A DNA stretch of 32,541 nucleotides from the NCBI GenBank assembly GCA_937976685.1, contig CALJWR010000025.1, forward strand, positions 1 through 32,541, given 5' to 3'. The notes below the pieces were generated by a model, which saw nothing but the letters and a program-made list of their open reading frames with translations, was not told where the DNA came from and did no database searches. Positions 10,250 to 25,697 of the stretch are shown here, in pieces (the first letter of the stretch is position 1; every line of letters starts with the position of its first letter). This stretch comes from an uncultured Verrucomicrobiae bacterium (GTDB lineage: Bacteria > Verrucomicrobiota > Verrucomicrobiia > Limisphaerales > J093). Both the position numbers and the translations under genes were made by a program.

Positions 10250-11200
10250 TCAGATGGCAAACGCCCGCCGCAGCATCTCGATGCTTTTCGGCACAGCCGT
10301 TTCCGGATCTTCCTTGCCCTCCATCTCGAGGGACACGTAGCCGCGATAGCCGGCGTTCTTGAGGATGCGGGCGATCCGCGGATAGTCGAGATCGAGGGTG
10401 TACCACTCGCCGCCGCCGTAGTAGGTCTTGGCCTGGACGAACTTGGCGCGCGGGGCGAGGTGTTCGAGTTTGTCGTACGGATCCTCCAGAAAGTTGCCCG
10501 TATCGAGCATGATGCCGAACCAGGGCGAATCAATCTGGTCAGCGATGCGCAACATGCCTTCGGGTGTGTTGGTCAACCCCCAATGGTTCTCGAGCGCGAG
10601 GATCACGCCGCACTCGGCCGCCTTCGGCAGGCATTGCTGGATGCACTCGACGCACCACCGCGTGCCATCGGCCTCCGTGTAGCCCTCGATTACCGGCTCG
10701 ATGCCGCGGGCCTTCATGAGGTCGTCAAAGCTGGCGATCGTGTTCCAGCGCCCCGAGTTCAAGCGGATGCACGGCACGCCCAGTTCGTAGGCGATCTCGA
10801 TGCACTTGACGGTGTGCTCCACCTGTTGCCGCCGGTACTCGGCACTGGGATCCACGAAGTCTTGGTGAATCGAAAACGCGATCAGGTCAATGCCGTTGAG
10901 GAAGGCGTGGCGCTTGAGCTTGCGGAGATAGGCCCGGTGGTCGGCCGTCAACGGCTCCTTTTCCGGGATGTCCAGCTGGCGATGCAGGATGTCCACGCCC
11001 TCAACGCCCAAGTCCGACGCCTTTTCGATGACTGTCTCGATCGCCACCTTCGGCGGGCGGAAATGCCAGTAAGAGTAGGTGGAAATGCCGAGCTTGATGC
11101 GATGCGCTGCGGAAGGGGCGACCGGCGGCGCGCCAAATGCCAGAGGCACCCCCGCCGCCAGCCCGGCGGCGGTCAAAAACGAACGTCGGGAGAAGTTCAC
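10250..11200 (-). CDS. Tat-exported sugar phosphate isomerase/epimerase-like protein
   Basis: This is a TIM-barrel protein of the xylose isomerase-like / AP endonuclease 2 superfamily, predicted to isomerise or epimerise a sugar or polyol outside the cytoplasm. The GTG at 11200 was chosen because it gives the N-terminus MNFSRRSFLTAAGLAAG, a twin-arginine signal right at the start. A TTG at 11236 would add 12 residues. Barrel strands carry the metal-binding-type acidic residues expected: ALENHWG, MLDTGNF and the C-terminal SLEMEGKED. The length is 316 residues including the signal, normal for the family. It follows the GH2 gene by 96 bases on the same strand, so it may process sugars released by that enzyme. 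The substrate is unknown. Confidence 0.87.
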   Translation of the reverse strand: MNFSRRSFLTAAGLAAGVPLAFGAPPVAPSAAHRIKLGISTYSYWHFRPPKVAIETVIEKASDLGVEGVDILHRQLDIPEKEPLTADHRAYLRKLKRHAFLNGIDLIAFSIHQDFVDPSAEYRRQQVEHTVKCIEIAYELGVPCIRLNSGRWNTIASFDDLMKARGIEPVIEGYTEADGTRWCVECIQQCLPKAAECGVILALENHWGLTNTPEGMLRIADQIDSPWFGIMLDTGNFLEDPYDKLEHLAPRAKFVQAKTYYGGGEWYTLDLDYPRIARILKNAGYRGYVSLEMEGKEDPETAVPKSIEMLRRAFAI

Positions 11201-11296
11201 GGGCGCAGCATGGTCCGCCGGCCGCTTCGGACGCAAGTCGCAGAATCCTTGGTAGCCGCTGCGGCAGCGCCAAAATCTCGCCGGCGCGCGCGCCGC

Positions 11297-14119
11297 CTAC
11301 TTCAACGTGAACACGACCGTGGGATCGAGCGGATACCGACCGAAGCGTTCCCCGTAAATGGCCAACCCGCCGGGGAACGCCTCGTCCACCTCAAGGCGGA
11401 GCACCAATTCCTTGGCGCCCGCCGCGGCACTGAGCGCCTCGGGGGGAATCGTTGCGCGGAGCAACCACCCGTAGGACCCGGCTTCGCGCAGCTTCCGATC
11501 CCGGAGTTGCGCGTGCCAGGACAGAATGCCGCGGTGATCCGCCGGATCATCCGGCAACTCAAACGTCCCGGCCGTCACACCGTTGACGCGCACGCGGACG
11601 CGGCTCGGGAATACCTCGGTGTCGGTCATTGGATACGAATTGGGGTTCTGGCTGCGGTGGGCCACGCCCTCGCCCCGCATGTAGTCCACATCCCGGAATG
11701 TCGCCCCTTCGCGGTCCTTGGCGAACAGTTCCTTGGCCGAGGTTTCGACCAGGAACGTCGCGCCCGTGACGTCGCCCGCGCTCAGCCCTTCGGGCCAGGC
11801 GATGCGGTACTCGAAATAACCGTGGCCGGCCCCATTGACCTTGAGACCCTCCAGCACGTTCCACTGCTTCTGCGACCAGCGCGCCTCACGGAAGCTGGTG
11901 GGCGCCAGCCGCAGCACACGGACCCGGCCCTGTTCGAGCGCCACCATTTCGTCGCGCGGCGACGAACCGTCGCCGATGACGAAGGTGGTGAAGTTCCGGT
12001 GCAGCACGCTGCCGGCCTCGTCCTCCAAGGCGAGTGCCAGGATGGCCAACCCCCGCTTTTCGGGGAGTTTCACCGTCAACCCCGGGTTCAAGGACCCGGT
12101 GGTCCAGCCACCCGAGAGCGGCAATACGCGGCGTCCGCGCTCATAACTTTCGCGCCGGCCGAGCGTGTCCCAGCCGAACAGCTCCGTCTGCAGGGCCAGG
12201 GTGCGTCCGCGGGCGGCCTCGGTCAGGAAAGAAACGTAAAGTGGGAGTTCCACGGAGGCGCCGGGTGCAACCGTCTGGCTCAAGGAATCTCCGGCCACGA
12301 CATAGAAGGGGCTGTGCAAGTCGTTCAACGTCATCCCGGACACGAGCTCCTCCAGGCCGGTGAATTTATCCGAGCGGTCGTAGCGCCAGTAGCCGTTCCA
12401 CTCGTTGATGACGTCGTGATGCTCGGTGTAGAGCCAGCCGCAGACCTTGGGGTGCCGTCGAAATTCGTTCATCATCTGGTGGTAGTCCCACGACCAATCC
12501 ACGTCGCCCGTGCTGCCCTCATAGCCCCACACGTTGCCACATTCGGAGTTGAGCAGGGGTTGGTTGGCCTGCTTGCGGCCGCCGATGAAGTTCCACGTCG
12601 AGCCGGGGAAGGTGTCCCGCGTCACTTGATCGAGGTGCGCGCGCCACTCCCAGCCGGGCAGGTAGGCGTGCCACGAGTTGATGTCTGTCTCGACATGATC
12701 GTAGTTGCAGGGCGAGTTGTCCTCCACGAGGCGGGTCGGATCGAGCTGTTTGGTCATCCGGTAAATCGAGGCCACCCATTCCTGGGTTTCGGGCAGGTAC
12801 TCCCGCTTGTCGCCCTGACCAGTGAAGAGGCCCCACGTCTCGTTGAAGGGTACCCAGGAGAAGATGGAAGGGTGGTTGAAGTCGCGCGCAATCATTCCCC
12901 GGAGGGCGTGCTCGATCTCGCGTCGCATTTCCGCGTCGGGCTCGCCCCACGAATTGGGCACGTCGGCCATGATGAGCAGCCCGAGCCGGTCCGCCCAGTA
13001 CAGCTTGCGCGGCACCTCGACCTTCACATGCACGCGGTTGGCGTTCAGCCCGATGCGCTTGGAGCGGAGGATTTCATCGCGCATGAAGGCGTCGCTGGGG
13101 AAGGTGTAAAAGCCGTCCGGGTGATACGACTGATCGAGGCACATCTGCAGGTACACGGGCCGGCCGTTCAGCGCGATGTACGGGAAGTCCGTGCCCGGCA
13201 GGTTCATCACGCTGATCTTCCTCATGCCGAGATAGGTGGCCACGCGGTCCTCGCTGCCCGGCGCCGCAAGCGCGGCCTCGAGTTCGTAAAGAAACGGATC
13301 GCCGAGCGTCCACAGGCGTGGTTTCGGAATCGGCACGTCGAAGGAGACCGACTCGGCGTCCGCGGGCACCGGCTGGGTGACCTCGCCCACTCCGCCCGTC
13401 TTGAACCGCAGCCGCAGGGCGGCACCCCCAGGGGCCTTGCCGGAAAGCGTTGCGCGGACTGTGGCCAGTTCCTTGTCAATGTCCGGCGTGAAGTGAAGCG
13501 AGCGGATAAACATCGCCGGACGCGCCTCGAGATAGATCGTCTGCCAGATGCCCTTGGCCTCGCCGTAGCCCTGCTTGCCTTCGAGCTTGAAGGCGTGCTT
13601 CGTGTCGTCCACGCGCAGGACCAGCCGCTGCTCGACGCCCCACTTCACGTGCGGCGTCAGTTCGAACTCGAACGGCGTGTAGCCGCCGCGATGCTCCCCC
13701 AGCGGCTGCCCGTCGAGCCAGCCCTTGGTCAGCCAGTCGCACGCGCCCACCACCACGAACACCCGTTTCTCCCGCCACGCCTCCGGCACCACGATGTTCC
13801 GCGCGTACCAGCCAAGGTCCGCCCGGTTGGTGACGCCGGACAGCTTTGAGCCCCACGGAAACGGAACGGTGATCGTCATCTCGAAGGGCCGGACACCTGC
13901 CGCCCAATTCGCCTTCTCACCCGCGTCCTCCGGATCGAACTGAAACGCCCACGCGCCGTTTAGATTCCGCCAGTCGGCCCGCTCGAAATCTGGTCTGGGA
14001 TGCTCGGGCAGCGGGATCGGCGAAGACTGACCGAAAGTCGCAGGTGACAGGAAAACCAACAGGGCGGCGATGCCACCACAAAAGAGGCGCCGTGGGGTTT
14101 GAGGCGGAGCGTGCGTCAT
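11297..14119 (-). CDS. Secreted glycoside hydrolase family 2 enzyme
   Basis: This is a retaining beta-glycosidase (beta-galactosidase, beta-glucuronidase or beta-mannosidase type) of 940 residues. The ATG at 14119 directly precedes a signal peptide (LFCGGIAALLVFLSPATFGQ); six codons upstream of it are open but unlikely to be used. Domains in order: the N-terminal jelly-roll sugar-binding domain (about 40-190, with LNGAWAFQFDPEDAG and WYARNIVVP), an immunoglobulin-like domain (190-300), and the TIM barrel (300-620). Catalytic residues are the acid/base Glu427 in FNETWG and the nucleophile Glu526 in NSECGN. About 320 further C-terminal residues are beta-rich and carry another possible sugar-binding module. 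A response regulator lies 106 bases upstream on the same strand and an isomerase-like gene downstream, consistent with a glycan-utilisation locus. The specificity cannot be read from sequence. Confidence 0.92.
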   Translation of the reverse strand: MTHAPPQTPRRLFCGGIAALLVFLSPATFGQSSPIPLPEHPRPDFERADWRNLNGAWAFQFDPEDAGEKANWAAGVRPFEMTITVPFPWGSKLSGVTNRADLGWYARNIVVPEAWREKRVFVVVGACDWLTKGWLDGQPLGEHRGGYTPFEFELTPHVKWGVEQRLVLRVDDTKHAFKLEGKQGYGEAKGIWQTIYLEARPAMFIRSLHFTPDIDKELATVRATLSGKAPGGAALRLRFKTGGVGEVTQPVPADAESVSFDVPIPKPRLWTLGDPFLYELEAALAAPGSEDRVATYLGMRKISVMNLPGTDFPYIALNGRPVYLQMCLDQSYHPDGFYTFPSDAFMRDEILRSKRIGLNANRVHVKVEVPRKLYWADRLGLLIMADVPNSWGEPDAEMRREIEHALRGMIARDFNHPSIFSWVPFNETWGLFTGQGDKREYLPETQEWVASIYRMTKQLDPTRLVEDNSPCNYDHVETDINSWHAYLPGWEWRAHLDQVTRDTFPGSTWNFIGGRKQANQPLLNSECGNVWGYEGSTGDVDWSWDYHQMMNEFRRHPKVCGWLYTEHHDVINEWNGYWRYDRSDKFTGLEELVSGMTLNDLHSPFYVVAGDSLSQTVAPGASVELPLYVSFLTEAARGRTLALQTELFGWDTLGRRESYERGRRVLPLSGGWTTGSLNPGLTVKLPEKRGLAILALALEDEAGSVLHRNFTTFVIGDGSSPRDEMVALEQGRVRVLRLAPTSFREARWSQKQWNVLEGLKVNGAGHGYFEYRIAWPEGLSAGDVTGATFLVETSAKELFAKDREGATFRDVDYMRGEGVAHRSQNPNSYPMTDTEVFPSRVRVRVNGVTAGTFELPDDPADHRGILSWHAQLRDRKLREAGSYGWLLRATIPPEALSAAAGAKELVLRLEVDEAFPGGLAIYGERFGRYPLDPTVVFTLK

Positions 14120-14225
14120 GCCGCTAGTTCGCCACACGACGGCAGTGGGAACAAGCGCCGAGTGACCGCGGAGGACGGTTTTTGCGTCAGGAACGGCCGC
14201 TCCGCGCCGCGACGTGTTCCCCTGA

Positions 14226-14852
14226 CTAGCGCCGCAGAAATTTGGCCACCGCTTCGGTTCGCGTGCGGACCTGCAGCTTCTCGTAGATGCGGCGGATGTA
14301 GGTGTGGACCGTTTCGTAGCTGACGCCGAGCTTCTCGGCGATTTCCTTGTAGATCAGCCCCTGGGCGAGACAGTCCAGCACCTGCTGCTCCCGCTCGGAG
14401 AGGTTCTCGGTCGGATCGGCCACGGGAGCGGTGCGTTGGAACGACTGCACCACCTTGCGGGCGATGTGCGTTGTCATGGGGGACCCGCCTTTGAGCACGT
14501 CACGGATCGCCGCGAGCAACTCGTCGCGCGGCGTGCGCTTGAGCAGGTAGCCCGTTGCCCCCGCCGCCAGCGCGTTGAAGATGTTGTCCGTGTCCTCGTA
14601 CACGGTGAGCATGATCACCTGGACCCGGGGCGCCAGCTGCTTGAGCCGGCGCACGCACTCGACGCCGTTCATGCCGGGCAGATTGATGTCCATCAGCACC
14701 ACGTCGGGCGCGTCAGCGGGCAGACCCTCGATGGCCGCCTCGGCGTTGGAGTACACGCTGACGCACTGCATGCCCTCGGCCCGGGCGATCACCCGTGAGA
14801 GTGTGGTCCGCACGGCTTCGCTGTCCTCCACGATGGCAACCTTGATGGGCAT
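14226..14852 (-). CDS. NarL/FixJ-family response regulator
   Basis: This is a phosphorylation-activated DNA-binding transcription factor of 208 residues. The ATG at 14852 puts the receiver domain at the very N-terminus (MPIKVAIVEDSE); the open frame reaches back to 14915 but adds no recognisable sequence. The receiver domain (1-120) has the acidic pair Glu9/Asp10, the phospho-acceptor Asp55 in LMDINLPGMNG, and the conserved Lys in YLLKRTP. The LuxR-type helix-turn-helix is at about 144-205 (LSEREQQVLDCLAQGLIYKEIAEKL, then TVHTYIRRIYEKL). The gene follows the histidine kinase by 59 bases on the same strand, so that kinase is its likely partner. Its targets may include the GH2 gene immediately downstream, but no operator was identified. 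Confidence 0.94.
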   Translation of the reverse strand: MPIKVAIVEDSEAVRTTLSRVIARAEGMQCVSVYSNAEAAIEGLPADAPDVVLMDINLPGMNGVECVRRLKQLAPRVQVIMLTVYEDTDNIFNALAAGATGYLLKRTPRDELLAAIRDVLKGGSPMTTHIARKVVQSFQRTAPVADPTENLSEREQQVLDCLAQGLIYKEIAEKLGVSYETVHTYIRRIYEKLQVRTRTEAVAKFLRR

Positions 14853-14911
14853 GAATTTTGAGTTCGGTGCGAGCTGTCCGGACCAGAACCGTACGCGGCG
14901 GCCGCGGGGCG

Positions 14912-17900
14912 TCAATCGGCAGGCCGCCGCTCACCGAGCGGAGCAGTAAGGCGAATCACCGTGCCGCGGCCGGGGGCGGGAGTGATTTCAAACCGCCCCC
15001 CGATATCCTCCATGCGCTTGCACATCCCGCGCAGTCCGTTCCGGTTTCGCACGGCCTTTTCGTCGAGTTCGCCGAGGCCCTTGCCGTCGTCCGCGATCTC
15101 AATCGTGAAAGCCTCCGGTCCGAGCTTGAGGCTGACCCGGGCTTCGGAGGCCCCGGCGTGGCGCACGATGTTGGTGACCGCCTCCTTGGCGGCGAGGAAG
15201 ACGTTGTGCCGGACATCCGGGGGAATGTTGACGGCCGGCAACTCCGCCGGCACGTCCAGCCGGTACCGCACGCCGGCGACGCCCAGATATTCCTGAGCGT
15301 GTTTGCAGAAGTACGTCACCAAGCCTTCCAGCGTGTCGTTCGACGGGTTCACCGCCCAGACGATCTCGTCCAGCGTCCGGGTCGTCTCCCGCGCGGTTTG
15401 CGTAATCTGGCGGGCGTGCGCGGCCACCTCGTCCGGCAGGTCTTTATCCACCTCGGCCAGTTCGCCGAGCATGGCCACCTGCGTGAGATTCGCGCCAAGT
15501 TGATCGTGCAGGTCCTGGGCGATCCGGGCCCGCTCCTTCTCCAAGGCTTCTTCCCGTTTCAGTTCGAGGAGCTGCCGCTGCAGCTTTTGCGTGGAGACAT
15601 AGCGCACGACGGCGGCCACCAGCGCGAGCAGCACCGCCGCCACCGTCGGTGCAAACCAGCGTTGCCGCCACAGCGGCGTCAACACCTCGATTGCCAGCGC
15701 GCTGCCCAGCTCGTTCCACACCCCATCCTCATTGCTGGCGATCACCTGAAAACGATACCGGCCCGGCGGCAGTTTGGGATACCGCGCCACGCGGTCGCCC
15801 CCCGCTTCCACCCACGTCTGCTCGTAGGGCGTGAGACGATAGCGAAAACGGGCCCGGTCCGGCGCGCCCAAGTTGAGACTGGTGAACTGAATCTCCAGCC
15901 GCTCGCGTCCCGGCGGGATGATCAAGGGCTGCGGAAACGCGCGTCGCAGCACGTTTGTGCCCTGATCCTGGCCGTCCACGCGAACCTCCTCGATCACCAC
16001 CGGCGGCGGCGTCAGGTTGGGACGCAGGCGATCCGGGTTCACGGCGACCAGGCCGCGTACCGACGCGAACCAGAGCCGGCCCTCCTTGCCCCGCCAGGCC
16101 GAAGGCTGGGAACCCAGCGGGAACTCCCGCGTCGGCAAACCGTCGGCCCGGTCATAGACGCGACACGCGACGCGCGGGGCACGGCCGGCGGCGAATTCCT
16201 CCAGGGCCGCCCGTGGCACGCGGGCCAAGCCCGCGTTCGACCCGATCCAGAGGGATCCCTGCCCATCATCCAGCATGGCGCCGATGCTGTTGCCGGGCAG
16301 GCCATCCCGGCTGGTGAACCGGTTCCAGCGCCCCTGCCGATACCGCGCCAGGCCACTGCCAAAAGTGCCCACCCACACCGTGCCGTCGGCATCCACCAAC
16401 AGGGATGACACATCGTCACTCGGCAGCCCGTCGGTCCGGCGGAAATGGCTGAACCGGTCCTCGCGCCAACGATTGAGACCGCCGCCGACGGTGCCGATCC
16501 ACAGATTGCCCTCGGCGTCATCGGCCAGGGCGCGGACTTCGTTCGCCGACAATCCTTCCGCGACGGTGAAGAGCCTCCAACCCGTTTCGGTCCGCAGTCC
16601 CAGTCCTCCCGGGGTGCCGCACCAAAGACGGCCTTGGCGATCCCGAAACAGCACGGAAACCACCGCGTGCAGTCCTTCCGCGCCCTCGGCTGGTTCGAAA
16701 GTGCGTCCCCGAAATTCGAACAGTCCGCTGGCCCGCGTGCCGACCCAGACATTGGTCACGCGCGCGTCGAAGTCGCCCCAAGCCACCAGCGACTCCGCCA
16801 ACAAGCCGCTCCGCGCCGGCACGGACACCTCCGCCCAAAGCGAGAGGACTTGGGGGTTGATGAGCCCGCTGCCACCCGCGAAGCGTTCACTGCCGATCGG
16901 ATGCCAGCGCCACACCCCTTCGCCATCGGTGCCGGCCCAGACAGTGCCCGTGGCGTCTTCGCAAACCGTCAGCACGGTTTGACCACGAGTTTCCTCCACC
17001 ACCTCGAACACCTGGCGTTTGATGCGATTCAAACCGCCTCCCTGGGTGCCGGCCCAGAGGTTACCCTCGCGGTCTGCGCACAGGGAAATCACGGTGTTGT
17101 GGGACAGACCTTCGCGGGTCGTCAGTCGGGTCACCCGCCCGTCCGCACTGAACCAGTACAGGCCGCCCCCCGCCGTGCCGACCACCAGATTACCGGAAAG
17201 GTCCTCGCTCGCTGCCGTCACGCGCGTCCCGGGTGGCCAAGGGTACGGGCCGGCATCGCGTTCGAGCTGTCCTCCCCGCCAGATTTCGATGCGGCCATCG
17301 GCGAGGCGCCAGAAACCGCCTTTTTGTCGCGCGGCCAGGAAGTCGAGGCGTCCCACTTCCAATTCGCGCAAGAGGGGGAGTTCAAAGGCCGCGCCACCCG
17401 GACCACCGATCTGGGCCAACCGGTGATCCGTCCCGATCCATAACTCCCCGTCCACGGTCGCCACCAGCGTGCGCAAGGTGCTGGGCCGGTCATGACCGAA
17501 CAGGTGCGGGATGAACCGACCGCCCCGCCGCTGCCAGACCGCTCCGTCAGCCGTGTTGAGCCAAACAGCGCCGGTTGGGTCGGCGCGCGCGGCCACCAGG
17601 CGGCTCTCGGAGGCGCCCTGCCCGAGGCCGGTGCTCGTGATTTCGCCGTCTTTAAGAAAGGCGGCGCCGCCGGTTTCCGTGCCAATCCACAGCGTCCCGA
17701 ACGGGTCTTCATACAAGCTGACAATCCGTGAGCTCGGCAGGCCCGGGGTGTTGCTTTCGTCGAACACGGCGAACCGCGCCCCGTCAAAGCGAACCAGCCC
17801 GTTGAGCGTGCCCAACCAAAGGTAACCGTCGCGCGTCTGAACGATCGCGGTGACGGAGTTCTGCGGCAGGCCGTCGTCCGTGTCCCACGTCCGAATGATG

Positions 17901-18010
17901 AAGGGGGAGGACGCCGCGGGCGGTGGTTCCGCCGCGGCGGGTCGCAACGCCCCCCAGCCCAGCAGGACAAGGAGCGGGATCAGGCGAGGTTCGCTGCGCC
18001 ACTGCCGCAT
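14912..18010 (-). CDS. Propeller-type sensor histidine kinase (Reg_prop, Y_Y_Y, HisKA_3)
   Basis: This is a one-membrane-span sensor kinase of 1032 residues. The ATG at 18010 precedes a signal peptide (LIPLLVLLGWGALRPAAA). The frame continues open far upstream to 18478, but that part overlaps the divergent Dabb gene and is not protein-like. The periplasmic part (about 30-700) carries repeated Reg_prop blades such as GYLWLGTLNGL, GNLWAGTQGGGLNR, GTVWAGTDGEG, GNLWIGTVGGGLNR and GTVWVGTFGSGLAR. A Y_Y_Y domain follows (about 715-780), then a membrane helix (about 786-804) and a coiled linker. The dimerisation/phosphoacceptor helix has His835 in AQDLHDQLG, and the ATPase domain has KEAVTNIVRHAG and DDGKGLG. 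In Bacteroidota such propellers sense glycan fragments. Here the DNA-binding part is separate, in the NarL regulator 59 bases downstream. Confidence 0.94.
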   Translation of the reverse strand: MRQWRSEPRLIPLLVLLGWGALRPAAAEPPPAASSPFIIRTWDTDDGLPQNSVTAIVQTRDGYLWLGTLNGLVRFDGARFAVFDESNTPGLPSSRIVSLYEDPFGTLWIGTETGGAAFLKDGEITSTGLGQGASESRLVAARADPTGAVWLNTADGAVWQRRGGRFIPHLFGHDRPSTLRTLVATVDGELWIGTDHRLAQIGGPGGAAFELPLLRELEVGRLDFLAARQKGGFWRLADGRIEIWRGGQLERDAGPYPWPPGTRVTAASEDLSGNLVVGTAGGGLYWFSADGRVTRLTTREGLSHNTVISLCADREGNLWAGTQGGGLNRIKRQVFEVVEETRGQTVLTVCEDATGTVWAGTDGEGVWRWHPIGSERFAGGSGLINPQVLSLWAEVSVPARSGLLAESLVAWGDFDARVTNVWVGTRASGLFEFRGRTFEPAEGAEGLHAVVSVLFRDRQGRLWCGTPGGLGLRTETGWRLFTVAEGLSANEVRALADDAEGNLWIGTVGGGLNRWREDRFSHFRRTDGLPSDDVSSLLVDADGTVWVGTFGSGLARYRQGRWNRFTSRDGLPGNSIGAMLDDGQGSLWIGSNAGLARVPRAALEEFAAGRAPRVACRVYDRADGLPTREFPLGSQPSAWRGKEGRLWFASVRGLVAVNPDRLRPNLTPPPVVIEEVRVDGQDQGTNVLRRAFPQPLIIPPGRERLEIQFTSLNLGAPDRARFRYRLTPYEQTWVEAGGDRVARYPKLPPGRYRFQVIASNEDGVWNELGSALAIEVLTPLWRQRWFAPTVAAVLLALVAAVVRYVSTQKLQRQLLELKREEALEKERARIAQDLHDQLGANLTQVAMLGELAEVDKDLPDEVAAHARQITQTARETTRTLDEIVWAVNPSNDTLEGLVTYFCKHAQEYLGVAGVRYRLDVPAELPAVNIPPDVRHNVFLAAKEAVTNIVRHAGASEARVSLKLGPEAFTIEIADDGKGLGELDEKAVRNRNGLRGMCKRMEDIGGRFEITPAPGRGTVIRLTAPLGERRPAD

Positions 18011-18115
18011 GAGTGATTGTTCAAATGCCGGTGGCTGGAGTGCAAATCGGAAAAGCCGCGCCGCTGGGGCCGCGCGAACGCGTCGGTTGGACCGCCGCCT
18101 CGGATCCGGGAACGC

Positions 18116-18144
18116 TTGCCGTCCGCACCCCGAGTTCCCATGAT
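18116..18144 (+). promoter_or_regulatory. Weak candidate promoter for the Dabb gene
   Basis: TTGCCG (18116-18121), a 17-base spacer and CATGAT (18139-18144, 4 of 6 -10 matches) lie upstream of the ATG at 18183, giving a leader of about 30 bases without a Shine-Dalgarno. Chance occurrence is possible. Confidence 0.25.
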
Positions 18145-18182
18145 CTGCGCGCGTTAAAAGAAGAAACCAAGTACTTCCAACG

Positions 18183-18593
18183 ATGAGAACCACCCTCGCT
18201 CTGCTTTGTGCCACGCTCATCAGCGCGTCTCTCTTCTGCGCGGCCGCTGCCGAAGGCAAGACCAGGCCCGTTCGCTCTGAGAAGCGCGGCACCCTCGTCC
18301 ACATGGTCTCCTTCAAGTTCAAGCCGGAGGCCACGCCCGCGCAGATCAAGGAGGTGGAGACCGCGTTCGCGGCGCTCAAGAAACAGATTCCCCAGATCGT
18401 TTCGTTCGAGTGGGGCACCAATGTCAGCCCGGAGGGGCTCGACAAGGGGTTCACCCACGGCTTCATCCTCACGTTCAAGAATGCCGCCGACCGCGACGCC
18501 TACCTCGTTCATCCCGACCACAAGAAGTTCGGCGCGCTGGTCGGCCCGGTCCTCGCAGACGTGTTCGTGGTGGATTTTGTTTCCCGCCGATAG
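18183..18593 (+). CDS. Exported Dabb (stress-responsive alpha/beta barrel) domain protein
   Basis: This is a small dimeric ferredoxin-like-fold protein of 136 residues with unknown biochemical role. Residues 1-23 form a signal peptide (LALLCATLISASLFCAAAA), so it is probably periplasmic. The Dabb domain covers about 36-133: it opens with LVHMVSFKFKPEATPAQ, has the central SFEWGTNVSPEG and HGFILTFKNAADRDAYL, and ends with the family-typical HPDHKKFGALVGPVL. The ATG at 18183 has no Shine-Dalgarno. The gene is divergent from the histidine kinase (172-base gap) and 103 bases upstream of the Lrp-type regulator. The family is recognised with good confidence. Confidence 0.9.
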   Translation: MRTTLALLCATLISASLFCAAAAEGKTRPVRSEKRGTLVHMVSFKFKPEATPAQIKEVETAFAALKKQIPQIVSFEWGTNVSPEGLDKGFTHGFILTFKNAADRDAYLVHPDHKKFGALVGPVLADVFVVDFVSRR

Positions 18594-18696: not shown

Positions 18697-19176
18697 ATGG
18701 ATCCGCTGCTCAAACTCCTGCGCGAAAACGCCACCTACCGCCCCGACCAGCTCGCGGCGATGCTCAACCTGCCGGAAGCCGAGGTTACCGCCCGCATCCG
18801 CGCCTATGAGGCCGACCGCGTGATCGTCGGTTACCGCACGGTCCTAAACGAGGAGAAGCTCGGCCTGGACCGGGTACGCGCCGTCATCGAGGTGAAGATC
18901 ACGCCTGAGCGGGAGGGCGGCTTTGATCGGGTGGCCGAGCGCATCGCCAAATACGCGGAGGTGCGATCCTGCTATCTGATGTCCGGCGGCTACGACCTAC
19001 TGGTTGAGGTGGAAGGCAACGACCTGCGGGAAGTGGCATCGTTCGTGTCCGCGAAACTGGCCACGATTCAGGGGGTGCTCTCGACCGCGACCCATTTCGT
19101 GCTCAAGCCGTACAAGGAGCAGGGCGTCCTGCTCGGGGGCGAGCTGACCGACGAGCGGCTGGCGGTGAGCCCCTGA
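18697..19176 (+). CDS. Lrp/AsnC family transcriptional regulator
   Basis: This is a DNA-binding regulator that usually responds to amino acids, 159 residues. The N-terminal winged helix-turn-helix spans about 1-50 (LLKLLRENATYRPDQLAAML, then EVTARIRAYEADRVIVGYRTVLN). The AsnC/RAM ligand domain spans about 60-140, with VEVKITPEREGGFDRVAERI, the typical YLMSGGYDLLVEVEG and the C-terminal STATHFVLKPYKEQG. The last segment and the short HTH resemble the Lrp subgroup often found beside a class I/II aminotransferase; no such gene is here. There is no Shine-Dalgarno, and a promoter-like pair lies 6 bases before the ATG. The next gene, the 1111-residue exported protein, begins 58 bases downstream on the same strand. 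Confidence 0.92.
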   Translation: MDPLLKLLRENATYRPDQLAAMLNLPEAEVTARIRAYEADRVIVGYRTVLNEEKLGLDRVRAVIEVKITPEREGGFDRVAERIAKYAEVRSCYLMSGGYDLLVEVEGNDLREVASFVSAKLATIQGVLSTATHFVLKPYKEQGVLLGGELTDERLAVSP

Positions 19177-19234
19177 CGTCCGCCACCGCACGAACCAACG
19201 AGCGGTTTCCTTCGCCCCGCCACGGTTGGCCGCC

Positions 19235-22200
19235 GTGAAACTCGCCGGATTGATCCTCGCCGCCGGGATGACTGTTGCCGGCCTGCTTGCCGGGGACCGT
19301 CCTCGGCCCGCCAACCTCGCCGGCTTTGGATTCGTCAGCCGGGTCAGCGCGAATGGCGCGACGCCGCCCGCGTTTCTGCCCGCGCTGACCAGTTCCACGA
19401 ACGCGGCCTCGGTGCGGTTCCTGCCCGAGGAGCGACTGTTGGTCGAATGGGAGCATCCTCGGCCGGTCCGGGCGATCGAACTGCGCTTCGCTGGTGCGGC
19501 ACCATCCCCCCGCGCGATCCGCGTCGAATGGTGGCACAGTGCCTGGCCGGACGCCGACCCGGAACGTTCAAGCCGACTCGACGACCCGTTCAATGGCAGC
19601 TGGATTCGCGGTCTGGTTCGCTCGGTGGAAGACCCGGGCGCCACCAACGCCGTTCGTCTGGAATTCGGTCCGCTCGGTCCCGGCGAAGTGACCGGCGTTC
19701 AGCGCACCGGTCTGACCCAACGCGTCACCTACCGTCTGCGGGTCAGTTTTGCCCTGCCCGTGGAACTTCAGCATTTCGCCGCGCATTCGGACGCGGTCGA
19801 ACGAACCGCCCGCCTGCGGTTCGAATGGGAGGTGCAAACGACCGTTCCCGGCGAGTGGAATCCCACCTTCGAGGTGCGCAACGGGTGCCTGCGCGAGATG
19901 CGCAAGACCAGTGCTCGGAGTGCGACGGTCACCGTGGAGTACGCGGACGCGCCCGACCCGCTGAGTCCCGACCGCGGCTACGTCATTTTTCGGAGCGGCG
20001 AGACCCGCAGCTTTGCCGTGTTCGTGGACGAGGTGCTGCGCGAGGGCGGGTTGCACGTGCGCGACGTGGGCGTTTTCGTGAGTGACGCCGCCCGGCAACT
20101 CACGTTCAGCCGCTGGTCCGGCCCCGGCAGCGGGGTTTGGTCGCAAGGGACGGTGCTGGAACAGGTCAGCCGACTGCCCGAAGAGAGCTTCTCTGCCGCT
20201 CGTGCGGCGCTCCCCGAGAAACCTCGACCTCCGCTCCGGCTGGGAGTACCCGATCTCCGGCAGAATTTTGTCCTCCTGCCCGACGGTGACTTTCAGTTGC
20301 GGGCCGATGCCCTGCGCGTTCCCGGGGCGGATTCCGCCTTGGTGGGACGGCCTTGGCCGGAGTTGACGTACGACTTCGAGACGGGCGAACGGCCGCGCAT
20401 GGGGCCGGGTGGTTCGCGACGAGTCACCCGCTCGTTGGAGGAGGGCTGGCTACCGATCGTTCATCATGCTTGGCGGGAAGGGGGGATGGAATGCGAGCAG
20501 ATTTCCCTCGCCGCGCCGTTGCGCCACGAGTTGTCCCGGCAGGAAAGGGGCAACGGCTCCGCGCCGGTCGTGCTGGCCACCCAATTCACGTTTCGCAACC
20601 CGACTGAACAGGTCGAAACCCTTACACTCTGGCTCGAAGTCAGCCGCCCCGAGCCGCTCCGTGTGTCCGTGGACAACACGCTCCTGCTCTCGCGGCCGTC
20701 GGACCATCGTCTTCGTGAAGGCGTCGTGCCGGTACGCGGCCACTTCAACGTGCGGGGTCAAGGTCGCGTGGATCTCGCGGTGCTGACGCCCGGCGGCCCT
20801 GGCAGTTACATTACCGCGCTTGCCGACCCGGCAACCGCACGGGACGCGATTCGCTATCAAGTCGAACTCGCGCCGGGAGCCAAACACGCCGTCGAGTTTT
20901 TTGTGCCCTGTCTGGAGTTGCAAACAGCCGAAGATCTGGCGGCCCTCAAACGGCTGTCGTTTGACCGCCTGCACACCGCCGTTCGCGAATTTTGGGAGCA
21001 ACGTCAGCGGCAAGGCATGGCCATAGCGGTACCGGAGCCGTGGCTGAACGATTTCTTCAAGGCAAACCTCTGGCGCGTTCTGATCTCGAGCGATGTGGAT
21101 CCGGCCACTGGTCTTCGCCATGCGCGCTCGGGCCTTCCGGGCGAGGGCAACCTTCTCCGAGAGACCGCGGTCGTTGCGCGCTCCCTCGAGATGCGGGGCG
21201 AACATGACGCCGCCGTGCGCCTGCTCGAACCATTCGTCTTGTCGCAGGGCAAACAAGGTCCCCCGGGTAATTTTTTGTCGCGGGAGGCGGTATTGGGGGC
21301 CGCCCATCCGGATGAGCCGGACCCGTACACCGGCCAGACCAGTGTCTTGGATCACGGTATCGGAATGTGGGCCGTGGCGGAACACTTCGCGTGGAGCCGG
21401 GATCCCGGCTATTTGCGGAGCGTGGTGCCCCGGCTGATCGGCGCGGCGGACTGGGTCACCCGCGAGCGCGCGGCCACGCGCTTCCTGTTGCCGGACGGCC
21501 GCCGCCCGCCCGAGTACGGCCTCCCTCCCGCAGCCGCCTTGCCGGGGGCGGCGGAACACCAGCACTGGTACGCCGCCAGCGGCTATCTGCTCCTCGGCAT
21601 GACGCACGTCCTCAACGCTGCCGGCGCGCTCGCGCTGCATCCCGAAACCGATCCCGCCCTGCGGCGCGCCGTGAGCCGCGAGGTCGGCCGGTTGGATCGC
21701 GACCTGAAAGCCTTCACCGCGGACCTCCGGCTTAGTCTTGCCGAAACAGTGGCCACCACGCCCGCGGTCCGCCTTCGCGACGGCCGGTATATTCCCCGGA
21801 TCCCCCCGCGCGTGCATTCATGGGTGCCGCGCGGCGATGGCTGGTTTCGTGCGACTACCTATTCGGCCCTCCATTTTGTGAACGCCGGCGTTCTCAGTCC
21901 CGGTCATCCCTTTGTCGAATGGATCGCGCAGGACCTCGAGGACAATCTGCTCTTCGGCGGGCCAAACGGAGCGAGCGTCGCTGCCCCCGCGACAGAATTG
22001 TTCCACGCCGGCAGCATCGCCCATCCCCCGCTGTCACTGGACTTGCCGATGGTCTATCTAAGACAGGATCGCATCCCTCACTTCCTGCGGGCGTTCTATA
22101 ACACGGCCGCCGCGAGACTCCACCCGGACGTAGTCTGCTTTGTGGACCCGGAGCTAAGCCCGGGAGAAGACGCCGGGTTCTGGTATCAGACCGGGGACGA

Positions 22201-22570
22201 ATGCCGTTTCATCCAGTGGCTGCGCCAGATGCTGATTCTCGAAAACGGCGACCGGCTGGAACTGGGCATGGGCGTACCGCGCGCCTGGATGGCGGACGGC
22301 CAGGCCATCCGGGTCGAACGCGCGGCGACGCTGTTCGGGCGGCTCCACCTCGAGATCGTGTCGCGCGTTGCTGAAAAACGAATCCTGGCTCGCGTCGCTC
22401 TCGAGCCGACGGTAACCCCGGGAGCCGTGCTGCTTCGCCTCCGCGATCCCGAAAGCCGCCCGATGCGCTCGGCCTCCGTCAATGGCCAGCGGGCTCGCTT
22501 GGACCGCGCGCGGCAGCTCATCGAGCTTCCTCCGACCAGCCGAGTCTGGGAGGTCGAAGCCCGTTTTTGA
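19235..22570 (+). CDS. Large exported protein of unknown function, possibly six-hairpin glycosidase-like
   Basis: I do not recognise this 1111-residue protein as a named family. The GTG at 19235 gives an immediate signal peptide (MKLAGLILAAGMTVAGLLAG); a TTG three codons earlier is also open. The N-terminal half (about 25-590) is beta-rich with many Arg/Pro and carries segments like FTFRNPTEQVETLTLWLEVSR, typical of glycoside hydrolase N-terminal beta-sandwiches. From about residue 600 (WLNDFFKANLWRVL) it turns helical, with aromatic/acidic segments such as TSVLDHGIGMW (Asp706) and AAEHQHWYAASGYLLLGMTH, as in (alpha/alpha)6-barrel glycosidases. The last 100 residues are beta-rich again (MRSASVNGQRARLD). 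The domain order resembles GH-like enzymes acting on oligosaccharides, but this is inference. It follows the Lrp regulator by 58 bases and converges with the Na+ symporter gene. Confidence 0.85.
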   Translation: MKLAGLILAAGMTVAGLLAGDRPRPANLAGFGFVSRVSANGATPPAFLPALTSSTNAASVRFLPEERLLVEWEHPRPVRAIELRFAGAAPSPRAIRVEWWHSAWPDADPERSSRLDDPFNGSWIRGLVRSVEDPGATNAVRLEFGPLGPGEVTGVQRTGLTQRVTYRLRVSFALPVELQHFAAHSDAVERTARLRFEWEVQTTVPGEWNPTFEVRNGCLREMRKTSARSATVTVEYADAPDPLSPDRGYVIFRSGETRSFAVFVDEVLREGGLHVRDVGVFVSDAARQLTFSRWSGPGSGVWSQGTVLEQVSRLPEESFSAARAALPEKPRPPLRLGVPDLRQNFVLLPDGDFQLRADALRVPGADSALVGRPWPELTYDFETGERPRMGPGGSRRVTRSLEEGWLPIVHHAWREGGMECEQISLAAPLRHELSRQERGNGSAPVVLATQFTFRNPTEQVETLTLWLEVSRPEPLRVSVDNTLLLSRPSDHRLREGVVPVRGHFNVRGQGRVDLAVLTPGGPGSYITALADPATARDAIRYQVELAPGAKHAVEFFVPCLELQTAEDLAALKRLSFDRLHTAVREFWEQRQRQGMAIAVPEPWLNDFFKANLWRVLISSDVDPATGLRHARSGLPGEGNLLRETAVVARSLEMRGEHDAAVRLLEPFVLSQGKQGPPGNFLSREAVLGAAHPDEPDPYTGQTSVLDHGIGMWAVAEHFAWSRDPGYLRSVVPRLIGAADWVTRERAATRFLLPDGRRPPEYGLPPAAALPGAAEHQHWYAASGYLLLGMTHVLNAAGALALHPETDPALRRAVSREVGRLDRDLKAFTADLRLSLAETVATTPAVRLRDGRYIPRIPPRVHSWVPRGDGWFRATTYSALHFVNAGVLSPGHPFVEWIAQDLEDNLLFGGPNGASVAAPATELFHAGSIAHPPLSLDLPMVYLRQDRIPHFLRAFYNTAAARLHPDVVCFVDPELSPGEDAGFWYQTGDECRFIQWLRQMLILENGDRLELGMGVPRAWMADGQAIRVERAATLFGRLHLEIVSRVAEKRILARVALEPTVTPGAVLLRLRDPESRPMRSASVNGQRARLDRARQLIELPPTSRVWEVEARF

Positions 22571-22669: not shown

Positions 22670-24046
22670 TCAGAAGAGCTTTTTTCCGCTCAGTCCGGCG
22701 ATGAGGTTCACCAAGATGAAACCGATCACGAGCGGGCAGACGTACCGGACGAATATGCTCCAGATGCCGGCGAGCGAGACGCTTCCTAGGAACGGCTTCT
22801 TGAATCCGGGACAGCCACTGGCCAGTTCTTCGATGGCGTTAGCCGGTTTCCAGACGTACCCCGTGAAGACACTGCACAGCAGGGCGATCAACACGATCAG
22901 CAGGGTGCCGACCAGCAAATCCATGATGTCGAGGAAGCCCGTCTTGCCCAAAAACTTCACCTCGGTTAGCCACTTGCTGCCGCCCGCCGACAGCGCCGAC
23001 GGAATCCCAATCACGAACGCCAGCAGACCGACCCCCCAGGACGCCACGTTTCGAGACAGCTTCCGGTCGTCCAGCAGCCACGCCACGGGTACCTCCAGCA
23101 TCGAAATGGACGAGGTCAGGGCCGCCACCATGAGCAGCAAAAAGAAGACGCAGCCGACTAAGTTGCCCGCCGGCATTTGCTCGAAGACCGCCGGCAGCGT
23201 CTTGAACGTCAGGGCCGTGCCGGCGTCTGGCTGCATTCCAAACGCGAACACCGCCGGGAAGACCATGAACCCACCGAGGATGGCGATCGCCGTGTCGGTG
23301 ATCACCACCCAGAAACCGCTGCTGACGAGGTTCTGATCCTTCTTCACGTACGAGGCGTACGTGATCATCAGCCCCCAGCCGACGCTCAATGAGAACAGCG
23401 CCTGCCCGAGGGCCGTGATCAAAACGCTGCCGTTGATCTTGTTGAAGTCGGGTCTCAAGTAGTACTCCACCCCCGCCATTGCGCCCGGCAGGGTCAGGCT
23501 GCGGAGAATCACCAGCACTGCCATGGCAAGGAGGGCAGGCATGAGCAGTTTGGACCACCGCTCGATTCCCTTCTGCACGCCGCCATGCACGATCAGGATG
23601 GTCATCAGCATGAACGCGCCAAACAGGGGAATCACCCATTTCGGATCGGCGGCAAACTGGCCGAACTCCGTGTGCCGGCGCGTGAGCGACGTGAAGGCGT
23701 ACCCAACGGTCCATCCCGCGATGACGCCGTAGTAGCTCAACACCAGGAAACAACACAGGAGGCAGAAGACCCCGGTGATCGCGAAACCCGTGCGTGGACG
23801 GATGGCGAGGAAGGAATTGATGGCATCTCTGCCACCGGCCCGCCCGATGGCCAGCTCATTCCACAGCAGCGGCAGGCCGATTAACAACACGCATGCCAGA
23901 TACACCACGACGAACGCCGCGCCGCCGTTCTCGCCGGTCACGTAGGGAAAACGCCAGATGTTGCCCAAGCCGACGGCGGACCCGGCCGCCGCCAGAATGA
24001 ATCCCCATCGGGAACCCCATTGCGCGCGCTGCTCTGCAGATTGCAC
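22670..24046 (-). CDS. Neurotransmitter:sodium symporter (NSS/SNF) family transporter
   Basis: This is an inner-membrane Na+-coupled amino acid (or similar solute) importer with the LeuT fold, 458 residues. The length matches the 11-helix bacterial subgroup such as MhsT rather than 12-helix LeuT. The signature of helix 1 is GLGNIWRFPY at residues 26-35, containing the unwound substrate/Na+ site. GGAAFVVVYLACVLLIGLPLLWNELAIGR forms helix 2, and ALGQALFSLSVGWG and LTSSISMLEVPVAWLLDD match conserved helices 6 and 8. The start is a GTG at 24046, chosen because the family N-terminus begins just before helix 1. A good promoter ends 6 bases upstream, so the mRNA may be leaderless. The transported solute is unknown. 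Confidence 0.93.
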   Translation of the reverse strand: MQSAEQRAQWGSRWGFILAAAGSAVGLGNIWRFPYVTGENGGAAFVVVYLACVLLIGLPLLWNELAIGRAGGRDAINSFLAIRPRTGFAITGVFCLLCCFLVLSYYGVIAGWTVGYAFTSLTRRHTEFGQFAADPKWVIPLFGAFMLMTILIVHGGVQKGIERWSKLLMPALLAMAVLVILRSLTLPGAMAGVEYYLRPDFNKINGSVLITALGQALFSLSVGWGLMITYASYVKKDQNLVSSGFWVVITDTAIAILGGFMVFPAVFAFGMQPDAGTALTFKTLPAVFEQMPAGNLVGCVFFLLLMVAALTSSISMLEVPVAWLLDDRKLSRNVASWGVGLLAFVIGIPSALSAGGSKWLTEVKFLGKTGFLDIMDLLVGTLLIVLIALLCSVFTGYVWKPANAIEELASGCPGFKKPFLGSVSLAGIWSIFVRYVCPLVIGFILVNLIAGLSGKKLF

Positions 24047-24263: not shown

Positions 24264-25697
24264 ATGAATACGAACCGACTCGTTCCGACAAAATGTGCCG
24301 GCCCGCTGGTTGCCCTCGCCGCCCTGACAATTCTCCTCGCGGGCTGCGCGCACCGTCCCGTGCCGGAAAACCTCCGAGCCATGCAAACGGATTTGGACCG
24401 CTACATCGCCAGGGTGGATACGAACTACACTTGGCACGTGGCGTCGTCCGGTAAGTCGAACGGCGCCACCGTGACCGCCATTGACCTTGTCTCTCAGGCT
24501 TGGCTCACGACAAACGAAGTCAACCGGACGTTGTGGCGACACTGGCTGCTCGTGGTGCAGCCGGACGAAGTCGCCCATGACACAGCGCTGCTCTTCATCG
24601 GCGGCGGCAGCAACAAAGACGGCAACCCGCCCAAACCCGGCGAACAACTGCTGCAAATTGCGAAACAAACGAAGTCTGTCGTCGCCGAATTGCGCATGGT
24701 GCCCAATCAGCCTCTGATCTTCGGAAACGACAGTCGCGAACGGGTGGAGGACGACTTGATCGCCTACACGTGGGACAAGTTTCTGCGAACCGGCGAGTCG
24801 CGCTGGCTGGCGCGGTTGCCGATGACAAAGGCAGCGGTGCGGGCCATGGACACAGTCACTGCGTTCTGCGCTTCTCCCGAGGGTGGCGGCAGGTCCATCG
24901 GGCAGTTCCTCGTAGCCGGCGGTTCCAAACGCGGCTGGACGACGTGGACGACTGCGGCCGCGGACCGGCGGGTAGTTGCCATTGTGCCGATCGTCATTGA
25001 CCTGTTGAACATCGTGCCCTCCTTCAAGCACCACTTCCGCGCCTACGGCTTCTACGCCCCGGCCGTTCAGGAGTACGTGGACATGGGCATCATGGATTGG
25101 ATGGGAACGAAGGAATTCGACCGTCTGCTCAAGATTGTTGAGCCCTACGAGTACCGCGACCGTCTGACCATGCCCAAGCTGATCGTCAACGCCTGCGGAG
25201 ACCAGTTCTTCCTGCCGGACTCATCGCAGTTCTATTTCGACGACCTCACGGGAGTAAAATACCTTCGCTACGTGCCCAACACCGACCACTCCCTCAAGGG
25301 CAGTGACGCTTGGTTCACCCTGCTCGCCTGGCACGATGCCATCCTCAATCAACGCGCCCTGCCGCAGTTCAGTTGGAACTTGAGCGAGAAGGAAATCCAG
25401 GTGACGCCCGCGACCGCGCCCACGGAAGTCCGGCTCTGGCAGGCCACGAACCCCATCGCCCGTGATTTCCGCGTGGAGACCCTCGGCGCGGTGTGGACTT
25501 CGACGGTGCTTTCCCCGGATGCCGCCGGCAACTACACGGGCCGGGTGGCGACGCCTGCCAGAGGCTGGACCGCCTTCCTGGTGGAACTCACCTTTGACCT
25601 CGGGGGACCGGCGCCGCTCAAACTGACCACACCAGTGCGCGTCACCCCGGCGGCGCTGCCTTTTCCCGAACCAGAGCCGAAACGCCCACGTCGGTAG
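24264..25697 (+). CDS. PhoPQ-activated pathogenicity-related family lipoprotein
   Basis: This is a predicted alpha/beta-hydrolase-fold protein of 477 residues in the PhoPQ_related (PqaA-like) family, whose biochemical activity is poorly known. The N-terminus is a lipoprotein signal with lipobox LLAGC (cleavage before Cys at about residue 28), so it is probably membrane-anchored. Family signatures are the RHWLLVVQPDEVAHDTALLF strand, GGSKRGWTTW with a nucleophile-like Ser221, and MPKLIVNACGDQFFLPDSS with Asp313. NTDHSLKGSD carries His342. Together these resemble a Ser-Asp-His triad. The last 120 residues form a beta domain. The ATG at 24264 has no Shine-Dalgarno. The gene is divergent from the symporter (217-base gap) and is followed by a hairpin-rich gap. 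Confidence 0.92.
   Translation: MNTNRLVPTKCAGPLVALAALTILLAGCAHRPVPENLRAMQTDLDRYIARVDTNYTWHVASSGKSNGATVTAIDLVSQAWLTTNEVNRTLWRHWLLVVQPDEVAHDTALLFIGGGSNKDGNPPKPGEQLLQIAKQTKSVVAELRMVPNQPLIFGNDSRERVEDDLIAYTWDKFLRTGESRWLARLPMTKAAVRAMDTVTAFCASPEGGGRSIGQFLVAGGSKRGWTTWTTAAADRRVVAIVPIVIDLLNIVPSFKHHFRAYGFYAPAVQEYVDMGIMDWMGTKEFDRLLKIVEPYEYRDRLTMPKLIVNACGDQFFLPDSSQFYFDDLTGVKYLRYVPNTDHSLKGSDAWFTLLAWHDAILNQRALPQFSWNLSEKEIQVTPATAPTEVRLWQATNPIARDFRVETLGAVWTSTVLSPDAAGNYTGRVATPARGWTAFLVELTFDLGGPAPLKLTTPVRVTPAALPFPEPEPKRPRR

Follow-up and report, generated by a model that had tools for sequence, protein, structure and literature searches.

Does the 1111-residue protein encoded on the plus strand of a contig from an uncultured Verrucomicrobiae bacterium (32,541 nucleotides, hereafter the window) carry out an undescribed reaction on carbohydrates, or has it ceased to be an enzyme? 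The original prediction, made from the sequence, described an exported member of a new glycosidase-like family and regarded it as the best candidate for an undescribed activity in the window. We therefore treat the nature of the family and the state of this particular copy as separate matters.

The open reading frame is by its sequence a real gene and lies far above chance, since full-length ORFs in six further genomes from its taxonomic family encode products 47–51% identical to it. Its GC content by codon position (0.73/0.52/0.76) is like that of other real genes in the window, and a TTG at 19226 offers an alternative start upstream of the GTG listed in Table 1. The frame is open throughout and the hydrophobic N-terminus is modelled as a helix, in keeping with the predicted export of the protein. 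On the same strand, a Dabb protein (18183–18593) and then an Lrp/AsnC regulator (18697–19176) are encoded upstream, and an SNF symporter (22670–24046) follows downstream on the opposite strand. The minus-strand genes at 10250–18478 encode a GH2 protein, a sugar-isomerase-like (xylose-isomerase-like) TIM barrel, a LuxR-type response regulator and a Reg_prop/Y_Y_Y hybrid histidine kinase and are likely to form a sugar-sensing cluster; the region is thus partly carbohydrate-related. Comparison of the surroundings of orthologues revealed no conserved synteny: neighbours are mixed, some of them carbohydrate-related. A Dabb gene upstream of a family member was observed in two cases, at 18183–18593 of the window and at L133:5006–5617 (60% identical), with the Lrp/AsnC gene standing between the Dabb gene and the family member in the window. 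Positions 24264–25697 (+) of the window encode a homologue of a PhoPQ-activated pathogenicity-related protein (PF10142, E 4e-125), here in an environmental MAG.

Table 1. Position and character of the gene, its modelled domains and the sites at which it departs from its family (residue numbers refer to the 1111-residue protein).
Feature	Window position	Strand	Observation
Whole gene	19235..22570	+	1111 aa; GTG start at 19235, stop 22568-22570; from ORF, translation and full-length homologues
N-terminal hydrophobic helix, signal-peptide-like (residues 1-18)	19235..19288	+	VKLAGLILAAGMTVAGLLAG; model helix 2-18
Extra N-terminal beta region (residues ~22-330)	19298..20224	+	Model strands; structural matches start at ~330, so barely compared with known folds
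Beta-sandwich domain (residues ~331-560), in the place of the GH65/GH15-type N-domain	20225..20914	+	Model; GH65/GH95/GH15 alignments run from ~330 on
Helical linker (residues 565-600)	20927..21034	+	Model helices 565-572 and 576-593
(alpha/alpha)6 barrel (residues 602-1004)	21038..22246	+	Twelve main helices; Z 18-23 to GH78/GH65/GH15/GH63/GH125/GH95 chains
Y637E	21143..21145	+	Tyr in 83/83; between helices 1 and 2, in the place of TtGA Tyr337
Residues 701-712, first motif of the original prediction	21335..21370	+	QTSVLDHGIGMW; family form GGYN.HHGW; Y703S, N704V; H707 and G708 retained
E770P, D771G, loop of barrel helices 5/6	21542..21547	+	E and D in 83/83; putative general acid lost
Residues 774-783, EHQHWYAASG, second motif of the original prediction	21554..21583	+	E774 matches family acidic residue (D52/E31); remainder divergent
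Residues 931-934, PPLS	22025..22036	+	Family Q-P-N-L; Q931 and L934 in 83/83
E971D, loop of helices 11/12	22145..22147	+	E in 83/83, and in 136/139 of the superfamily set; putative general base shortened
K985Q, beside the putative base loop	22187..22189	+	K in 82 of 83 relatives; D988-E989 retained
C-terminal beta domain (residues 1016-1111)	22280..22567	+	Model strands; L...PRAW motif versus GH95 C-terminal motif, weak profile match

An AlphaFold2 model built from an 82-sequence alignment has a mean pLDDT of 92 and a pTM of 0.92, and that of the intact relative L060 reaches 92.7 and 0.93. Both models follow the same domain order: beta domains occupy the N-terminal part as far as about residue 560, a linker of helices leads to a barrel with twelve main helices, and a further beta domain forms the C-terminus. 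This bears out the predicted succession of a beta-rich N-terminal half, helices from about residue 600 and a beta C-terminus. VIA-align superposes the model on chains of GH78, GH65, GH15, GH63, GH125 and GH95 with Z 18–23 at about 10% identity, and the model of L060 has the same clan GH-L-type structural neighbours. Foldseek ranks GH94 phosphorylases, the putative GH 2rdy and a dextran dextrinase of the GH15 type highest (E 1e-12 to 1e-13, TM 0.31–0.42). By its model and these neighbours, the protein is of the six-hairpin (alpha/alpha)6-barrel carbohydrate-enzyme architecture that had been anticipated. There is no close relative among solved structures, and profile searches of solved-structure sequences returned chance matches only.

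The absence of a recognisable GH family, likewise noted in the original prediction, was borne out by sequence and structure. Scans of the protein against Pfam and NCBIfam matched no model, including the curated GH65 profile, GH95 (PF22124), GH94 (PF17167) and TIGR01577 (GH15 oligosaccharide amylase). Relatives come somewhat closer: GH95 matches occur in 9/30 family members (best E 0.01) below the gathering cut-off, and 12/30 match TIGR01577 (best 1e-7), far under its cut-off of 820.7 bits. True GH95 genes are present elsewhere in the source genome, and its sole sub-threshold GH94 match lies on another contig (C205). HHalign against GH95 revealed weak similarity at the a4-a5 hairpin and the C-terminal motif only, and the position of the acid loop in the extended alignment was unreliable; the assignment of acid and base given below therefore rests on conservation and loop positions. 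The corresponding alignments with GH15-type genes were two-sequence alignments and uninformative. Assignment to a single GH family was dropped, as GH78, GH63, GH125 and GH116 all appear among the structural matches and none stands out.

GH78 alpha-L-rhamnosidases (3w5n, 8iwf), which share the barrel and the C-terminal beta domain, give the top scores (Z 22.9, rmsd 3.8, 406 aligned), yet at about 10% identity and with a Z tied with GH65 and near GH15. GH94 and 2rdy provide the best Foldseek E-values (1.7e-13 and 6.2e-13, respectively), but the TM-scores for GH94/GH95 are 0.36–0.42 and the profile matches of family members to these models all stay under the curated cut-offs. FjGH65A (7fe3, GH65; Z 22.7, rmsd 4.5, 563 aligned) and TtGA (1lf6, GH15; Z 21.4, rmsd 4.1, 530 aligned), members of the inverting alpha-glycosidases of clan GH-L, share the N-terminal beta-sandwich, the helical linker, the (alpha/alpha)6 barrel and the C-terminal beta part. 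They differ from the 1111-residue protein in that identity is 8%, and that the latter has an extra N-terminal beta region of about 300 residues.

How widespread is this architecture? BLAST against 58 related genomes detected family relatives in 26, seven of them with full-length matches at 45–51% identity, together with many paralogues at about 30%; across the order, 76/320 genomes carry a member. When 84,980 species genomes were scanned with an alignment, 148 family loci came up, of which 80 were kept, whereas a single-sequence scan of genome contigs with patterns taken from the protein itself, including its divergent motifs, recovered no relative. The loci are distributed over Verrucomicrobiota, Planctomycetota, Armatimonadota, Chloroflexota, Sumerlaeota, Poribacteria, Acidobacteriota, Omnitrophota and Hydrogenedentota as well as two archaeal MAGs; the archaeal-labelled members (L097:452-3730 and L102:754-3948, in MAGs labelled Thermoprotei and Bathyarchaeota) may reflect transfer or bin contamination. 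Adjoining pairs of family members occur at L070, L071, L099, L115, L077 and L126, mostly in Armatimonadota and Planctomycetota. A subfamily of paralogues (L042, L045, L047, L048, L051) has an NPCBM domain ahead of this barrel (E 4e-36), which suggests that these members bind carbohydrate. The literature searched contains no description of the family or the gene. By profile match, the family does look large, unnamed and new to Pfam and NCBIfam: this part of the original prediction stands, while the copy on which it was based looks like a pseudoenzyme.

To judge this copy, the catalytic residues of the family have to be located. In FjGH65A and TtGA the catalytic acid and base reside in the a5-a6 and a11-a12 loops, and Tyr337 in the a1-a2 loop of TtGA holds the general base (PMC8626586). 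Counted on the helices of our model, the equivalent loops comprise residues 749–778 (a5-a6), 962–985 (a11-a12) and 619–640 (a1-a2); further pocket positions were derived from secondary structure and conservation. As the loops match those of the two characterised enzymes, we infer, by analogy and from conservation, that D771 (with E770) acts as general acid and E971 as general base in the family, supported by Y637. All four residues are invariant in 83/83 relatives, so that the intact family has acidic residues in both loops and a tyrosine between a1 and a2, as GH65 and GH15 do. An Asp at 770/771 together with E971 is found in 61/64 relatives detected by BLAST or HMM and in 72/72 detected by motif; the exceptions are L013, a related gene discussed below, and two distant proteins in which the alignment is shifted at this point.

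It is precisely here that the 1111-residue protein departs from its family. Of 80 family-conserved positions it retains 63 and differs at 17, compared with 2.5% for the median member and 8 of 79–80 for the next worst (leave-one-out). The acid and the tyrosine that GH65 and GH15 possess are missing: the acid pair has become P-G and the base D. Elsewhere, R614, S703, T875, P931 and S934 replace H614, Y703, L875, Q931 and L934, each present in 83/83 relatives; D988 and E989, invariant in the family, are kept. The changes are enriched in catalytic-side loops (10/27 versus 7/53, one-sided P=0.016, with loop borders set by the analyst). By contrast, the intact relatives L060, L061, L075 and L067, which are 44–51% identical over the full length with the same domain order and near-equal model quality, retain E770-D771, E971, Y637, H614, Y703, Q931 and K985. 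The two motifs that had appeared conserved, TSVLDHGIGMW (702–712) and EHQHWYAASG (774–783), turn out to be divergent spots when compared with the 83 relatives. Fold and loops taken together (pLDDT 92, twelve main helices, Z 18–23 to GH65, GH15, GH78, GH63 and GH125; acid and base loops intact in the relatives), the protein would hence belong to clan GH-L by fold and ancestry, and not as an active member.

We consider it quite probable that the protein is an exported pseudo-glycosidase that has lost the ancestral hydrolysis while its gene stayed under selection. Its ancestor, like nearly all relatives, would have been an inverting glycoside hydrolase of the GH15/GH65 (clan GH-L) type: E770/D771 would have protonated the leaving group from the loop of barrel helices 5/6, and E971, in the loop of helices 11/12 and held by Y637 after helix 1, would have activated the water. 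With the acid pair replaced by P-G, the tyrosine by E and the base by D, and with the pocket altered at H614, Y703, Q931, L934 and K985, this chemistry is most likely gone, whereas the modelled barrel fold is kept and the gene is still under purifying selection. The present role can be proposed less firmly: the barrel pocket and beta domains may bind glycans of the cell surface or environment, which is a guess, or may serve a structural or sensing function. The protein lacks the catalytic motifs that are conserved among its homologues, as befits a pseudoenzyme, and its open frame and purifying selection are those of a functional gene. The loss is judged from sequence. Since the E971D exchange is conservative and the acidic residues E774, D988 and E989 are still present, some residual or relocated catalysis may persist.

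The latter thought can be extended to a protein that is still active, with the acid role moved, for example to E774 in the same loop, with D971 as base, and with altered specificity or chemistry. There are documented pseudoenzymes whose catalytic residues have migrated (PMC10211241), position 774 is acidic as in the family, the invariant D988/E989 pair remains, and the gene is under strong purifying selection. However, E770-D771 disappeared together with Y637, H614, Y703, Q931 and K985, which suggests loss of the -1 subsite and not the swap of one residue, and in the clade-mate L013 the loop is deleted altogether. We therefore regard continued activity as unlikely.

Far less credible is a decaying pseudogene or an artefact of assembly or sequencing. 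The source genome is indeed an 80% complete MAG split into 374 contigs, and the protein branch, at 0.88 against 0.56 or less for intact members, is the longest of the clade except for that of L013. Against this, the ratio of substitution rates at codon positions 2 and 3 is 0.149 (0.097 with L013 in the tree), at a third-position rate of about 2.5 substitutions per site; the other clade members lie between 0.05 and 0.20, and because the ratio is within this range of intact genes, the gene does not appear to be a decaying pseudogene. The changes are scattered over many separate segments and neighbouring residues stay in register, which speaks against a frameshift. Decay is disfavoured because 1111 codons are open, most family-conserved positions are retained and normal codon constraint persists. 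Finally, a catalytically competent enzyme that founds a new family of six-hairpin glycosidases and uses Asp706 at the active site, as first envisaged, agrees with the fold and the lack of a named family but can hardly be upheld, given that position 706 is H53/N16/S7/G4/D3 among the 83 relatives and the motifs quoted for it are the divergent ones.

Is the pseudo-glycosidase a solitary case? L013 (G007:C196), from a different genus within this taxonomic family, has an open frame of 1135 aa and is even more degenerate: nearly all catalytic positions are lost, E971 is absent and the a5-a6 acid loop is deleted. It belongs to the same clade as the 1111-residue protein and shares the clade insertion HPxEPDP[YF]T, yet the two are 31% identical and its branch measures 2.5. 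Their grouping has a support of 100 in full-length and barrel trees and of 58 in the N-terminal half; it may reflect long-branch attraction, as both branches are long. Shared derived residues were considered as proof of common origin and dropped (9/37 identical versus 18/57 in control pairs), and the degenerate state may have arisen once or twice. A tree of RNase E/G does not settle whether the source genome, G000, and G007 are sisters; G007 (L013, L238, L256) also forms a long branch there. The divergence of L013 may partly be due to fast evolution of the whole G007 genome. Each genome yielded a single family copy, L013 in G007 and the present gene in G000, where an intact second copy might be absent from the assembly because the latter is 80% complete. 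The degenerate form is thus represented by one genome and one very divergent relative, that is, two MAG genes. Tentatively, and with somewhat less than even confidence, we propose that one family of Verrucomicrobiota harbours a lineage of exported pseudo-glycosidases, comprising both genes, retained and repurposed after the loss of catalysis in genomes without an intact copy. The lineage would lie within a large, undescribed family of the clan GH-L kind.

For the search for new activities, the two matters that had been merged are now separate: the unnamed family on the one hand and its degenerate copy on the other. With its active-site positions lost, as judged by family conservation and clan GH-L geometry, the 1111-residue protein no longer appears to be the best candidate in the window; the proper candidates are intact relatives such as L060, L061 and L075, which have a clear putative catalytic set. 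A hydrolase label transferred to this copy by homology would probably be wrong. As a natural loss-of-catalysis variant, it may instead be used to learn which role the scaffold of an exported glycosidase plays once cutting stops.
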